Positions 23,907 to 27,237 of a DNA stretch of 64,000 nt are shown in pieces. Both the position numbers and the translations under genes were made by a program. Within the stretch, counting starts at the first letter, position 1. Each line of letters opens with the position of its first letter. The notes under the pieces were generated by a model. That model saw only the letters and a program-made list of their open reading frames with translations. It ran no database searches and was not told the DNA's origin. The DNA is from Flavobacteriales bacterium (GTDB taxonomy: Bacteria > Bacteroidota > Bacteroidia > Flavobacteriales_G > Salibacteraceae), in assembly GCA_013204105.1 (NCBI GenBank), contig JABMOM010000029.1:62001-126000 (forward strand), in the 5' to 3' direction.

Positions 23907-24302
23907 ATGAAAAAGTACATGATTACCGCTGTTGCGACCCTCATCTTAGGGTCGGTCAGCCTGGCCCAGGGCCAAGCCCTCATCCATTCTCAAAACAAAC
24001 CAGAGCGTCCGGTAAAACCCAAGATGGAGCAGATGAAAACAGATCTCGATCTGACCGAATCCCAGGTCGCCAGCATCGTTGAAGCCAACCAAACTTTCGC
24101 TGTAGAGCGGACGAAGGTCGAGCGAGATGAAAACAACCAACCCCAGAAAGATGAGATGCGCAAATTGAAAAAAGCGCACCATCAGGAGGTAATGGCCGTG
24201 CTGACACCAGAGCAACGAACCAAGGCTGCCGAGCTGAGAAAGAAGCGAAGTCCGCACCGATTGGATGCAACAGAGCGCTCACCTAGATCTGAGCACAAGT
24301 AA
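23907..24302 (+). CDS. Spy/LTXXQ-like periplasmic protein
   Basis: 131 aa from MKKYMITAVA, with a signal peptide ending VSLAQGQ. The mature part is a highly charged helix-rich chain with LTESQVASIVEAN and LTPEQRTKAAELRKKR, the paired LTxxQ motifs of the Spy/CpxP group. Such proteins act as periplasmic chaperones or metal-stress sensors. It is followed by its own terminator and precedes the ECF sigma factor by about 90 bp. Confidence 0.75.
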   Translation: MKKYMITAVATLILGSVSLAQGQALIHSQNKPERPVKPKMEQMKTDLDLTESQVASIVEANQTFAVERTKVERDENNQPQKDEMRKLKKAHHQEVMAVLTPEQRTKAAELRKKRSPHRLDATERSPRSEHK

Positions 24303-24321
24303 GAAAACCGCGGATCCACGG

Positions 24322-24352
24322 TAAGCGAACCAAACGGTTCGCTTATTTTTTT
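24322..24352 (+). terminator. Rho-independent terminator after the LTXXQ gene
   Basis: Perfect 10-bp stem TAAGCGAACC / GGTTCGCTTA with an AAAC loop, followed by seven T. It separates the LTXXQ gene from the sigma-factor operon. Confidence 0.92.
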
Positions 24353-24393
24353 GTGCATTAGGAATTCACGTCATATTTCCTTTCTTTGAGCCT

Positions 24394-24951
24394 ATGCCAA
24401 TACATGCTCTTCATCCCGACACCTGGGTCGACCAGTATGGTGCCCAATTATTGGGTTATGCTGTAAAGCGTGTTCCTGAGCGTGACGTGGCACGTGACCT
24501 TGTGCAGGACACCTTTGTAACGGCGATTCGATCCAAGGATAAGTATCGCGGTGAAATTTCTGAGAAAAACTGGCTGTACCTAATACTCAAGAGCCGGATC
24601 CTCGACCATTACAAAAAGAAGAAGGAAACCCTTGCCTCCGATATCGGAAACGAGGAAGAGGAAGATCAGTTCTTCGATCAAAAGGGGAATTGGTTGCAGG
24701 ACAAACTTCCGAAAGAATGGACCACAGACAAGATGATTCGCAACGATGAGTTCATGTCCATTTTTGAGCGATGCCGTCAAAATTTAAAGGAAATCCAACG
24801 CATGGTATTCACGATGAAATATGTGGATGGAGAGGATTCTGAGGTAATTTGTAAGGAATTGGATATATCATCTTCGAACTACTGGGTGTTGGCGCATAGG
24901 GCTAAATTGAGCCTACGTCAATGCATCGAAAAGAATTGGTTTGAACAATGA
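24394..24951 (+). CDS. ECF-type RNA polymerase sigma factor
   Basis: 185 aa with the two-domain ECF layout. Region 2 (about residues 14-80): QLLGYAVKRVPERDVARDLVQDTFVTAIR and KNWLYLILKSRILDHYKKK. Region 4 (about 125-182): QRMVFTMKYVDGEDSEVICKELDISSSNYWVLAHRAKLSLRQCIEKNWF, with the sigma-70 helix-turn-helix. The start is immediately downstream of a terminator; the gene overlaps the anti-sigma gene (ATGA) and leads the bufferin-like operon, so it most likely controls that operon. Confidence 0.92.
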   Translation: MPIHALHPDTWVDQYGAQLLGYAVKRVPERDVARDLVQDTFVTAIRSKDKYRGEISEKNWLYLILKSRILDHYKKKKETLASDIGNEEEEDQFFDQKGNWLQDKLPKEWTTDKMIRNDEFMSIFERCRQNLKEIQRMVFTMKYVDGEDSEVICKELDISSSNYWVLAHRAKLSLRQCIEKNWFEQ

Positions 24952-25187
24952 TGACATGTAAAGAAGCTACCGAAGCAAGTGTTCGCAAATCTCAAGGCAA
25001 AGTATCCTTTCGAGAACGCTTTGACCTTGCGCTGCACTTCATGGCTTGCAAGTACTGCAGGTTGTTTGCCAAGCAGCAAGCCTGGATCGACCAATTCCTC
25101 TCGAATGGAAGTGATGTCAAAGACCAACTCACGGATGAAGAGAAGTCTAGCATTAAGACGAAAATCAACGACCCTCAAACTATTTAA
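24948..25187 (+). CDS. Small cytoplasmic ZAS-type anti-sigma factor
   Basis: 79 aa, no transmembrane segment. HFMACKYC at residues 30-37 is the H-x3-C-x2-C zinc anti-sigma motif, and Cys4 in MMTCKEAT is a plausible fourth ligand. ZAS proteins bind and silence their cognate ECF factor and release it on metal or thiol stress. Its start overlaps the sigma gene and the Cys-rich precursor follows 19 bp downstream, so a metal/redox-controlled switch for the operon is a fair inference. Confidence 0.75.
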   Translation: MMTCKEATEASVRKSQGKVSFRERFDLALHFMACKYCRLFAKQQAWIDQFLSNGSDVKDQLTDEEKSSIKTKINDPQTI

Positions 25188-25206
25188 TCAATCAATACCA
25201 AGTAAT

Positions 25207-25617
25207 ATGAACAAGCAATCGAAGCGAAATTTAGGTGCAATCATCACCGGAACCATTATGTCTGGAGCCCTTTTGGGAACCACCACTGCAAACGCAACAG
25301 AGATGTTCAACTACGATGATCTGGGCTCAGGCGCTGAACTTCGTTCTGATCTTCTCAACGCATCCAACACTGGGTTTAAATCTCCAGAAGCCAAGTGCGG
25401 CGAAGGAAAGTGTGGTGATGAGAAAGCTGAAACAAAATCTGCAGACCACAAGTGTGGAGAAGGTAAGTGCGGTGATGAAAAAGCCAACGCCAAAGAAGAG
25501 AGCAGCGAAGCCAAGGCCTCAGACCACAAGTGCGGAGAAGGCAAGTGCGGTGATGCTAAGACAGAAAGCGGCGACAAGATGGAAGAGAAAAAGAATCCAG
25601 ACGCAGATCCTAAGTGA
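25207..25617 (+). CDS. Bufferin/HvfA-like EGKCG RiPP precursor
   Basis: 136 aa. A Sec-type signal peptide (ending TTTANA, about residue 30) precedes a short leader-like segment (FNYDDLGSGAELRSDLL), then three copies of KCGEGKCGD. EGKCG falls at residues 66-70, 85-89 and 111-115, with Cys at 64, 69, 83, 88, 109 and 114, separated by Lys/Glu/Ala spacers. EGKCG repeats in a signal-peptide protein beside DUF692 and DUF2063 genes are the mark of bufferins (HvfA in Haemophilus). In these the Cys are converted by the DUF692 enzyme into copper-binding heterocycles. Exported to the periplasm to bind Cu, by analogy. Confidence 0.85.
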   Translation: MNKQSKRNLGAIITGTIMSGALLGTTTANATEMFNYDDLGSGAELRSDLLNASNTGFKSPEAKCGEGKCGDEKAETKSADHKCGEGKCGDEKANAKEESSEAKASDHKCGEGKCGDAKTESGDKMEEKKNPDADPK

Positions 25618-25636
25618 TCAACGTCCCGAAATAACA

Positions 25637-25668
25637 AAAGGTCCAGGCAGCATTGTCTGGACCTTTTA
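25637..25668 (+). terminator. Terminator/attenuator between precursor and DUF692 gene
   Basis: Stem AAAGGTCCAG / CTGGACCTTT (10 bp, perfect) with a 10-base loop and a TTTTATTTT tail. It sits inside the operon and ends about six bases before the DUF692 start, so partial termination would yield more precursor mRNA than enzyme mRNA. Confidence 0.85.
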
Positions 25669-25673
25669 TTTTC

Positions 25674-26510
25674 ATGAACCAACACGTAGGCATAGGATAT
25701 CGTAAGGACTTCGGTTCGGCTTTTCTGAATTCAGAGGAGGTACATCCGGCATTTGTAGAACTCGCACCCGAGAACTGGATCGATGTGGGCGGTTATTGGA
25801 AGCGGCAACTGCAAAAGGTGGCCGAACGCTACCCTATTTACAGCCATGGACTTTCCCTTTCTGTTGGAAGCCCTGACCCTATTGATCGTGGCTTTTTAAA
25901 GCAGGTCAAAGATTTTCTGGAAGAATGGAATGTTCAGATCTACTCTGAACACCTGAGCTACAGCAAATGCGATAACGCACACCTCTACGACCTCTTGCCC
26001 ATTCCCTTCCGAGAAGACGCGGTGAAACACGTCTCCGAGCGGATACGTGAAGTACAGGACTTTCTTGGTCGAAAACTGGTCATCGAGATCGTGAGTTACT
26101 ACACTCCCGTTGCTGCGGAAATGACGGAAGTTGAATTCATCAACGCCATCTTACAAGAAGCAGATTGCGAATTACTCTTCGACATCAACAATATTTATGT
26201 CAATGGATTCAACCACGGCTACGACCCGAAGGCTTTCATTGACCAACTGGACACCTCGCGCGTTCGCTACATTCATATGGCTGGACATGAAAAGGTCAGC
26301 GATGATCTGATCATAGATACACATGGCCAACCGATCATTGATCCAGTGTACGACCTCTTTGAACACGCTATAAAAAAATTGAACGGCCCTGTTCCCGTTC
26401 TCTTGGAGCGCGACTTTAACATTCCTGAAATGAAGGAATTACAGCACGAAATGGACAGACTGGAAGCCATCTGTACACAAACTTGGGATCATGCCACACT
26501 TGAAAGATGA
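25674..26510 (+). CDS. DUF692 family multinuclear iron enzyme (HvfB/BufB/MbnB-like)
   Basis: 278 aa, TIM-barrel DUF692 protein. Visible conserved metal-ligand regions: IGYRKDF, ELAPENWIDVGG, YSHGLSLSVGSPDP, YSEHLSYSKC (His/Glu), LLFDINNIYVN, RYIHMAGHE and DTHGQPI. In methanobactin (MbnB) and in HvfB/BufB these His/Asp/Glu hold two or three irons that oxidise Cys to oxazolone/thioamide or thiooxazole. Likely modifies the EGKCG Cys of the upstream precursor. It overlaps the partner gene by 20 bases. The start MNQHVGIGYRKDF follows the terminator stem; an ATG within the stem was rejected. Confidence 0.9.
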   Translation: MNQHVGIGYRKDFGSAFLNSEEVHPAFVELAPENWIDVGGYWKRQLQKVAERYPIYSHGLSLSVGSPDPIDRGFLKQVKDFLEEWNVQIYSEHLSYSKCDNAHLYDLLPIPFREDAVKHVSERIREVQDFLGRKLVIEIVSYYTPVAAEMTEVEFINAILQEADCELLFDINNIYVNGFNHGYDPKAFIDQLDTSRVRYIHMAGHEKVSDDLIIDTHGQPIIDPVYDLFEHAIKKLNGPVPVLLERDFNIPEMKELQHEMDRLEAICTQTWDHATLER

Positions 26511-27237
26511 GACCCATGAGCAGCAATCGCTGCTCGCCAAGTACACCCGCGACGGCATTGAGCCGGAGATGATCGGTGTTACCGAAGGCAGGCTACACCA
26601 CTACCGCCGATTGGTATTCAACGTCATTCGTGAATCTCTCTCCAGCACCTATCCGCTGACGGTGAACCTTTTGACCCAAAAAGAATGGAGTGTGGTCTGT
26701 CAGGAATTTTTCGAATCCCATGATTGTGTGCACCCACAAGTTTGGAGGATGCCAGAAGAACTCATTGCGTATATAGCCGAACACCGACAAGACCTGCACG
26801 AGCGATACCCTCAGCTTGAGGACCTGTTACAGCTCGAATGGTTGGAAGCCGAATACTACATGATGAAGGATCGGAATTTTCCTGAAGGAAGCAGCAAAGA
26901 TCCCATTGCAGCACCATGGAACTTGAATCCCGAATCAGAGATCGCCTCCTTTGCCTACCCTGTGCACATAAAGAACGCTCGATTCATTTCACCTACCGAC
27001 AAGGGAAATTACTACTGTTTAATCTTTCGCCAACGCACTTCTGGTAAGGTGAAGTTCATGAACCTCTCCCCTTTCTTGGCATGGTTGATCGCTACACTAA
27101 AAGCAGATGAAAGCATTTCACCTCAAGAGCTCTTTCCAGTCATCGCAAAAGAATTCGGGGTTGAAGATGAAGCGCTGCTCACAGAGCAACTGGGCAATTT
27201 CTTCGATAAACTGAGGTCAGACGAAATGGTCAAGTAA
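26491..27237 (+). CDS. DUF2063 partner protein (HvfC/BufC-like)
   Basis: 248 aa. The N-terminal DUF2063 region is recognised by ITEGRLHHYRRLVFNVIRESLSSTYP-like sequence (here VTEGRLHHYRRLVFN) followed by the FFESHDCVHPQVWRMPEEL segment. The C-terminal half (about 140-248) is a winged-helix-like domain. In methanobactin, HvfC and BufC systems this is the peptide-binding partner (RRE-like role) that presents the precursor to the DUF692 enzyme. Last gene of the sigma/anti-sigma/precursor/enzyme/partner operon. No DoxX-like membrane gene follows, unlike many proteobacterial versions. Confidence 0.85.
   Translation: MPHLKDETHEQQSLLAKYTRDGIEPEMIGVTEGRLHHYRRLVFNVIRESLSSTYPLTVNLLTQKEWSVVCQEFFESHDCVHPQVWRMPEELIAYIAEHRQDLHERYPQLEDLLQLEWLEAEYYMMKDRNFPEGSSKDPIAAPWNLNPESEIASFAYPVHIKNARFISPTDKGNYYCLIFRQRTSGKVKFMNLSPFLAWLIATLKADESISPQELFPVIAKEFGVEDEALLTEQLGNFFDKLRSDEMVK

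Follow-up and report, generated by a model that had tools for sequence, protein, structure and literature searches.

A captophorin operon of a Flavobacteriales bacterium with a predicted sigma-dependent promoter inside its ECF sigma factor gene and a terminator-like hairpin after its precursor gene

The window analysed here, a stretch of 64,000 nucleotides (nt) from a Flavobacteriales bacterium (contig JABMOM010000029.1, positions 62,001 to 126,000), codes for a captophorin (oxazolin/HvfABC) operon, in which genes for an extracytoplasmic function (ECF) sigma factor and a cytoplasmic ZAS anti-sigma factor lead those for a Cys-rich precursor peptide, an MNIO (DUF692) enzyme and a DUF2063 partner protein. 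The chemistry and the parts are those of a known family, of which this operon is a new member, and the link of that family to ECF/ZAS pairs is not new, as it is already known from Neisseria and Haemophilus. What comparative sequence analysis adds is a predicted promoter motif, an intragenic copy of it in the sigma gene and a hairpin kept in position after the precursor. We propose, with a probability of a little over 0.7, that the operon is run by an oxidant-responsive ECF sigma/ZAS switch that makes use of this internal promoter and this hairpin. We consider it hardly less probable that, in the Bacteroidota and Ignavibacteria, the sigma gene holds its own target promoter in the codons for its DNA-reading part, from which the anti-sigma factor and a swappable output are driven while sigma stays outside the loop, the Neisseria parts having been rewired from positive to negative feedback.

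The comparison covers 81 loci, namely the window and the best 80 of 151 relatives ranked by likeness to the window MNIO. Expectation-maximization (EM) was applied to loci whose ZAS and precursor genes leave room between them, on the 150 nt ahead of the precursor. It returned the motif TGTAAGG[A/T]T, 13 nt, CGTCTAT, and put 94% of the weight at a spacer of 13. The resulting promoter consensus is TGT[A/C]AGG-N15-CG[T/A]CTA. Over-threshold sites stand before the precursor in 57 of 77 loci, mostly at a distance of 55-80 nt from the precursor open reading frame (ORF). The search ahead of the precursor had been suggested by a box that two loci with a divergent sigma/ZAS pair (L043 and L050) share by eye. 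Upstream of the sigma gene itself, a two-box EM run on 43 thinned loci gave no convincing motif, and in the operon loci the 300 nt ahead of sigma contain no site scoring over 9. The sigma-target motif that the original prediction had expected ahead of position 24394 is instead located within the sigma gene, and most relatives have it ahead of the precursor as well.

The internal copies emerged from a scan of whole loci. They form a second set of sites some 100 nt ahead of the sigma stop codon, over the region-4 helix-turn-helix codons, where they cover those for C-K/Q-E-L-x-I-x-x-S-N. The matrix used was trained on the sequence before the precursor and not on these internal sites. Because conservation of the protein could explain them, we scored synonymous constraint, measured as third-base conservation in each sigma codon column against each locus's own codon use. 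The highest four of the 181 columns are residues 153, 154, 160 and 161 (z 8.1, 11.3, 10.0 and 7.2), and they are exactly the letters of the -35 and -10 boxes. The third base is T at residue 153 in 64 of 66 genes (32.6 expected), G at residue 154 in 64 of 65 (22.9 expected), G at residue 160 in 50 of 64 (16.6 expected) and T at residue 161 in 43 of 65 (17.8 expected). The same columns lead in a thinned set of 43 sigma genes below 72% identity, and the maximum z elsewhere is 4.5 in the anti-sigma, 6.8 in the MNIO and 6.4 in the HvfC genes. The matrix threshold is passed by 59 of the 66 sigma genes; in 200 synonymous recodings the number averages 6.5 and never exceeds 13. These codons might alternatively be conserved for the function of the protein, or through translational codon choice such as a pause or coupling to the anti-sigma start, with no promoter involved. 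Residues 153-161 do lie in a helix-turn-helix region conserved as amino acids, and many sigma columns show a mild codon preference (median z 1.4); however, the constraint falls on third bases relative to own codon use, peaks at the four columns that spell the boxes and spares the codons between them, and the internal letters and 13-nt spacer match those of the non-coding precursor promoters, which makes such an explanation quite unlikely.

A fresh, unselected test points the same way as the internal promoter. Among 395 genomes of the phylum, nine encode the same residues in whatever codons, and all nine use TGT AAG, while NCG is found in eight (the window, with TCT, is the exception) and TCT comes next in six. 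Five of these matches are the window, L009, L014, L015 and L017; the other four are new pairs of sigma and ZAS genes, and no peptide genes occur in the stretch examined. In two of the new pairs (L193 and L194, closely alike and of the same genus group) a second site follows the ZAS gene, and no captophorin genes are in view. The internal site is also kept in three genomes of the window's genus without a detected MNIO (L146, L150 and L153). Overall, the sequence case for an internal promoter in the sigma gene is strong. The second site of L193 and L194 precedes genes for an exported YHS-type-looking protein, a lipoprotein and a DoxX-like protein (names assigned by eye).

The second conserved element, which the original prediction did not mention, lies after the precursor gene. 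Compared with dinucleotide shuffles, the first 60 nt after the precursor stop codon fold far better (z < -2) in 72 of 77 loci, the median z being -4.8, and the same test is positive at the ends of 3 of 64 sigma, 7 of 64 ZAS, 11 of 81 MNIO, 6 of 79 HvfC and 6 of 50 DoxX genes. A strict terminator rule is satisfied after the precursor in 39 of 77 loci (shuffle mean 1.3) and, at the ends of the other genes, in 0 to 4. The hairpin sequences differ between loci; it is their position and form that are kept. Beyond these loci, a hairpin with a U-run follows the precursor of Neisseria gonorrhoeae, and Moraxella and Acinetobacter plasmids have a long stem without a U-run in a 100-nt fold, their first 60 nt not being significant. 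The likely role of the hairpin is to place the peptide in excess over its enzymes, via partial termination or by protecting the short transcript. In Neisseria meningitidis the MNIO gene would have roughly 2.6-fold fewer reads per base than the precursor, a ratio that combines the reads of PMC3240639 with gonococcal gene lengths and genes assigned by order, and that is only suggestive. (Published systems are described here and below from excerpts of the papers cited.) With its 14-bp stem, z of -5.1 and U-rich tail, the window hairpin might even be a full terminator, the MNIO and DUF2063 genes then having a promoter of their own. This is very improbable, as the stem lies only 6 nt from the MNIO start, the MNIO and HvfC genes overlap (26491-26510 being shared) and, in an N. 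meningitidis mseR mutant, the other five operon genes rise together 6- to 36-fold (PMC3240639).

The promoter motif also provides a predicted regulon. Exact matches to TGTMAGG-N15-CGWCTA number 35 in 18 whole genomes versus 14 for the reversed control. Outside the operon they stand ahead of MsrB genes (in three genomes) and of genes for a DsbD-N protein, an AhpC/TSA protein and a cytochrome b561 protein, the last with a small Met-rich protein encoded divergently. In the L053 genome a match precedes a sigma/ZAS pair; the other genome-wide matches have no clear meaning. In a dedicated set of 37 MsrB loci, one of them without a readable gene and the MsrB of the window's own genome (L154) being counted as a miss, 17 of 36 upstream regions have a site that is reached by at most 2 of 100 shuffles. 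In the window's genome, motif-like sequences lie upstream of the lipoprotein-like MsrB gene (CGTAAGGAT-N13-CTTCAAC) and of the MsrA gene (CGTAAGGTG-N13-CGTCTTG). The -10 box before MsrB is CTTCA in several members of the genus, the same CGTC to CTTC shift as in the internal sites of the genus. At L119 (G042 C178), divergent sites of this sigma type face a cytochrome b561 gene and one for a small, exported-looking protein very rich in Met and Lys, and an MsrB gene is found about 1.7 kb beyond the cytochrome b561 gene.

This regulon bears on the signal that is sensed. The original prediction had the buffering of copper or a similar soft metal under a metal/thiol-responsive sigma factor. Copper control by the sigma factor is not supported by the predicted regulon, which points instead to oxidant repair in the envelope (MsrB, DsbD-like and thioredoxin-like proteins). 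Were copper the signal, the sigma/ZAS pair would sense a soft metal via its thiols and the operon would be a copper buffer. Cu(I) attacks Zn-thiolate sites. Moreover, bufferins aid growth under copper stress (PMC12452194) and EGKCG products bind Cu (PMC12668002). Against this, the motif-bearing genes elsewhere specify MsrB, DsbD-N, AhpC/TSA and cytochrome b561 proteins, with no copper exporter among those examined, and homologous systems respond to HOCl and H2O2 (PMC7907618). We therefore regard copper as a doubtful but still serious candidate for the signal, and favor an oxidant.

Several observations weigh against this oxidant-responsive circuit or its parts. The first concern the window itself. 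Its proposed internal promoter stops 73 nt short of the end of the sigma gene, and 69 nt separate it from the anti-sigma start codon. Its -35 box is perfect and its -10 box, CTTCGAA, is in line with its genus; the latter differs from CGTCTAA at two places, and the site scores 7.5 with the strict matrix versus a median of 14.3. The gap between the ZAS and precursor genes is only 19 nt, and no second promoter was found there or in near relatives, which would leave the internal site as the one sigma-dependent start. For the window, as distinct from the family, the case is weakest at this -10 box. Within the family, the site score does not exceed 5 in three of the 66 sigma genes (L058, L037 and L047, the last being probably another sigma type), and three Pseudomonadota sigma genes (L087-L089) have no internal site. 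The pair of L125 is missing the internal -35 box, but has a site before sigma. No clear motif is seen in 19 of the 36 MsrB upstream regions, only 39 of the 77 hairpins satisfy the strict terminator rule, and the hairpin could act on RNA stability. Co-variation was set aside as main evidence: the internal and precursor promoters agree in 49 of 49 cases at position 4 of the -35 box, and this amounts to one change on the MNIO and HvfC tree. Positions 2 and 3 of the -10 box have 4-5 changes on the tree, with too few independent pairs for significance.

The circuit we favor would work as follows. At rest, the zinc-bound anti-sigma factor would hold sigma, as may be surmised from MseR, HrsE and RsrA, and under oxidant or thiol stress the zinc would be ejected and sigma freed. 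Free sigma is predicted to read the TGT[A/C]AGG-N15-CG[T/A]CTA promoters. One of these, the internal promoter over the codons of sigma's own helix-turn-helix, would fire the anti-sigma gene and everything downstream; in most relatives a second would fire the precursor, and further copies would drive envelope MsrB. With its gene placed upstream of both the internal and the precursor promoter, sigma would not be amplified by its own activity. Amplification would be confined to the inhibitor and the output, constituting a negative-feedback loop. The hairpin would then stop or trim most transcripts, favoring the peptide over its two enzymes. By family, the MNIO and the DUF2063 protein would convert the KCG cysteines to 5-thiooxazoles, and the exported peptide would bind Cu(I) or soak up oxidant. 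The output may be a swappable cassette, either the captophorin operon or other exported and DoxX-like proteins. In this form, the captophorins of the Bacteroidota gain a regulatory address in the shape of an exact promoter sequence, for which any genome can be searched. The tie to envelope methionine repair suggests that the peptides serve oxidant defence besides copper buffering. If true, a promoter that overlaps DNA-binding codons would offer a clean example of a gene constrained by the DNA that its protein must read.

Among the closest known counterparts is the sigmaE/MseR pair of N. meningitidis, an ECF/ZAS pair that controls genes of the same peptide family, and whose mseR deletion raises, in addition to the operon, msrA/msrB 80-fold (PMC3240639). 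The NMB2140-2145 genes comprise the same parts in one operon, and the gonococcal promoter type and the hairpin with its U-run are also alike. In N. gonorrhoeae (L089) the order is doxX, precursor, MNIO, HvfC, sigma and a small ZAS-like protein, with TGTCAGTTT-N13-CGTCTAA 64 nt before the doxX ORF; the 2.17 Mb chromosome concerned (NZ_CP119142.1) is filed as a plasmid. Sigma in Neisseria is thus downstream of its promoter, and for the N. meningitidis sigmaE circuit the authors speak of positive feedback (PMC3240639), whereas in the window it is upstream. On Acinetobacter and Moraxella plasmids we find the precursor, MNIO, HvfC and sigma genes with doxX divergent, and in Acinetobacter also a zf-HC2 protein; TGTAATAAA-N13-CGTCTAA precedes the precursor, with a divergent copy towards doxX.

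In Haemophilus influenzae, RpoE2 with the ZAS-type HrsE controls msrAB and an operon of doxX, DUF692-type and DUF2063 genes under HOCl (PMC7907618). Its oxazolin/HvfABC(X) system resembles ours in the Cys-repeat Sec precursor, the HvfB-type MNIO, the DUF2063/RRE partner and the ECF/ZAS pair (PMC13419390, PMC7907618). There, however, the sigma and anti-sigma genes lie away from the peptide operon and HvfX (DoxX) is present, whereas in the window the pair leads the operon, with no DoxX. The ZAS motif, C/H-x23-26-H-x3-C-x2-C in a small cytoplasmic protein beside an ECF sigma (PMC7907618), is fitted by the window anti-sigma factor, which is of the MseR/HrsE type and stands next to an ECF sigma. 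Hence, the notion that a cytoplasmic ZAS factor sets this operon apart from its proteobacterial counterparts is not supported, since sigmaE/MseR and RpoE2/HrsE control the same genes (PMC3240639, PMC7907618). Bufferins Buf1 and Buf2 likewise combine an MNIO, a DUF2063 protein and an exported Cys-rich precursor, but of other precursor families, and Buf1 clusters carry a sigma factor with an NrsF anti-sigma (PMC12452194). A Buf1 reading of the window was rejected, since its precursor is without DUF2282 and has no Pfam match at E 1. The principle of an intragenic promoter has a precedent, because in Corynebacterium glutamicum a SigH-dependent promoter inside sigH drives rshA alone (PMC3489674). 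That promoter differs in sequence, and the excerpts of this source do not describe a phylum-wide overlap with DNA-binding codons. In searches of the open-licence literature we recognised no account of an internal promoter in this sigma family, of the post-precursor hairpin or of Bacteroidota captophorin operons with a sigma/ZAS pair, and found none of the promoter overlapping DNA-binding codons with conservation over such a range.

The five genes of the original prediction, a plus-strand run with three KCGEGKCG repeats in the precursor, were confirmed at their coordinates (Table 1), and its assignment of an HvfABC-like operon under a ZAS-type sigma pair is supported. The MNIO scores 332 bits against PF05114 and 388.9 bits against the NCBIfam HvfB model NF003818 (cut-off 360). 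The precursor is recovered by KCGExKCG_twice (NF050137; 51.5 bits, cut-off 19.5) and falls below the cut-off of the HvfA equivalog model NF050188 (40.4 versus 95). DUF2063 (PF09836) and NGO1945_C (PF22106) are both over their Pfam cut-offs in the partner protein, which reaches 126 bits against the HvfC model NF050145 (cut-off 142). For the sigma factor the best family is TIGR02943 (148.8 bits, below the cut-off of 162.2), and the anti-sigma factor is slightly below that of NF052368 (48.2 versus 50). The latter has the motif C4-x25-H30-x3-C34-x2-C37, and the full ZAS motif is present in all 64 anti-sigma factors found. The peptide product is probably copper-binding, by analogy with its family.

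Table 1. Features of the captophorin operon region, in window coordinates
Feature	Position	Strand	Details
ECF sigma factor gene	24394-24951	+	185 aa; Sigma70_r2 and r4_2 over Pfam cut-off
Cytoplasmic ZAS anti-sigma factor gene	24948-25187	+	79 aa; Zn ligands C4, H30, C34, C37
HvfA-type precursor gene	25207-25617	+	136 aa; N terminus like a signal peptide (by eye); LGSGAELR segment; three KCGEGKCG repeats
MNIO (DUF692, HvfB type) enzyme gene	25674-26510	+	278 aa
DUF2063/PME1 partner (HvfC type) gene	26491-27237	+	248 aa
Proposed intragenic sigma-dependent promoter	24850-24878	+	TGTAAGGAA - N13 - CTTCGAA, from codon 153 of the sigma gene
Terminator-like hairpin after the precursor	25636-25667	+	14-bp stem, loop of 4, then ATTTTC
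Terminator-like hairpin upstream of sigma	24320-24347	+	separates the LTXXQ gene from the sigma gene

The nearest solved structure to the window MNIO by sequence is 3bww, which is described as closely related to HvfB (PMC13419390). Loss of the DUF692 metal ligands would have spoken against the original assignment; the 12 positions at the presumed iron and active site are invariant in all 81 loci. They include N172, D215 and H217, which we align with N175, D242 and H244 of HvfB, where mutation abolishes activity (PMC13419390). At residue 139 (window 26088-26090), which follows the conserved Glu138, 53 of the 81 MNIOs carry Ile, 27 carry Asn and one carries Val, and Asn is the residue in 3bww. 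Most Bacteroidota precursors also have an LGSGxELR-like segment after the signal peptide (window 25321-25344), matched by a strict pattern in 51 of 77, most misses being near variants by eye; it is not seen in the precursors of Neisseria, Moraxella and Acinetobacter. This segment may be a docking site for the HvfC partner.

The order sigma-ZAS-precursor-MNIO-HvfC on one strand recurs in 62 of the 81 loci, and hence the window arrangement is more than chance; as the loci were picked by MNIO likeness, this is not a phylum-wide rate. In 15 loci precursor, MNIO and HvfC occur without an upstream sigma/ZAS pair, which is divergent in L043 and L050, and four have no recognised precursor. The relatives include Flavobacteriales, Chitinophaga, Bacteroidales and Ignavibacteria. 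An MNIO is found in 8 of 13 genomes of the window's genus (its own included) and in 20 of 35 of the family. The absence of DoxX, originally put forward as a difference from the proteobacterial operons, stands for the window and its near relatives, none being beside the operon in the window or L002-L008 (three DoxX genes lie elsewhere in the window's genome). It does not extend to the Bacteroidota at large, with a DoxX-like gene, Pfam-confirmed in one member, near the operon in 52 of the 81 loci. Such a gene (HvfX) is frequent in captophorin operons, though it does not define them.

Directly upstream of sigma, the window has a CpxP/Spy-like LTXXQ gene (23907-24302), as do several genomes of the genus (L140, L143, L144, L149, L150 and L153), and this gene adjoins sigma even in genomes of the genus in which no peptide genes were found. 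Just ahead of the sigma start codon there is a TTTG-containing word, TTTCTTTG or TTCTTTTG, in the window (24381-24388) and in L091, L093, L095, L096 and L097; in members of the genus it often comes right after a terminator-like repeat. Were this word a housekeeping -7 box, almost no leader would remain before the sigma start.

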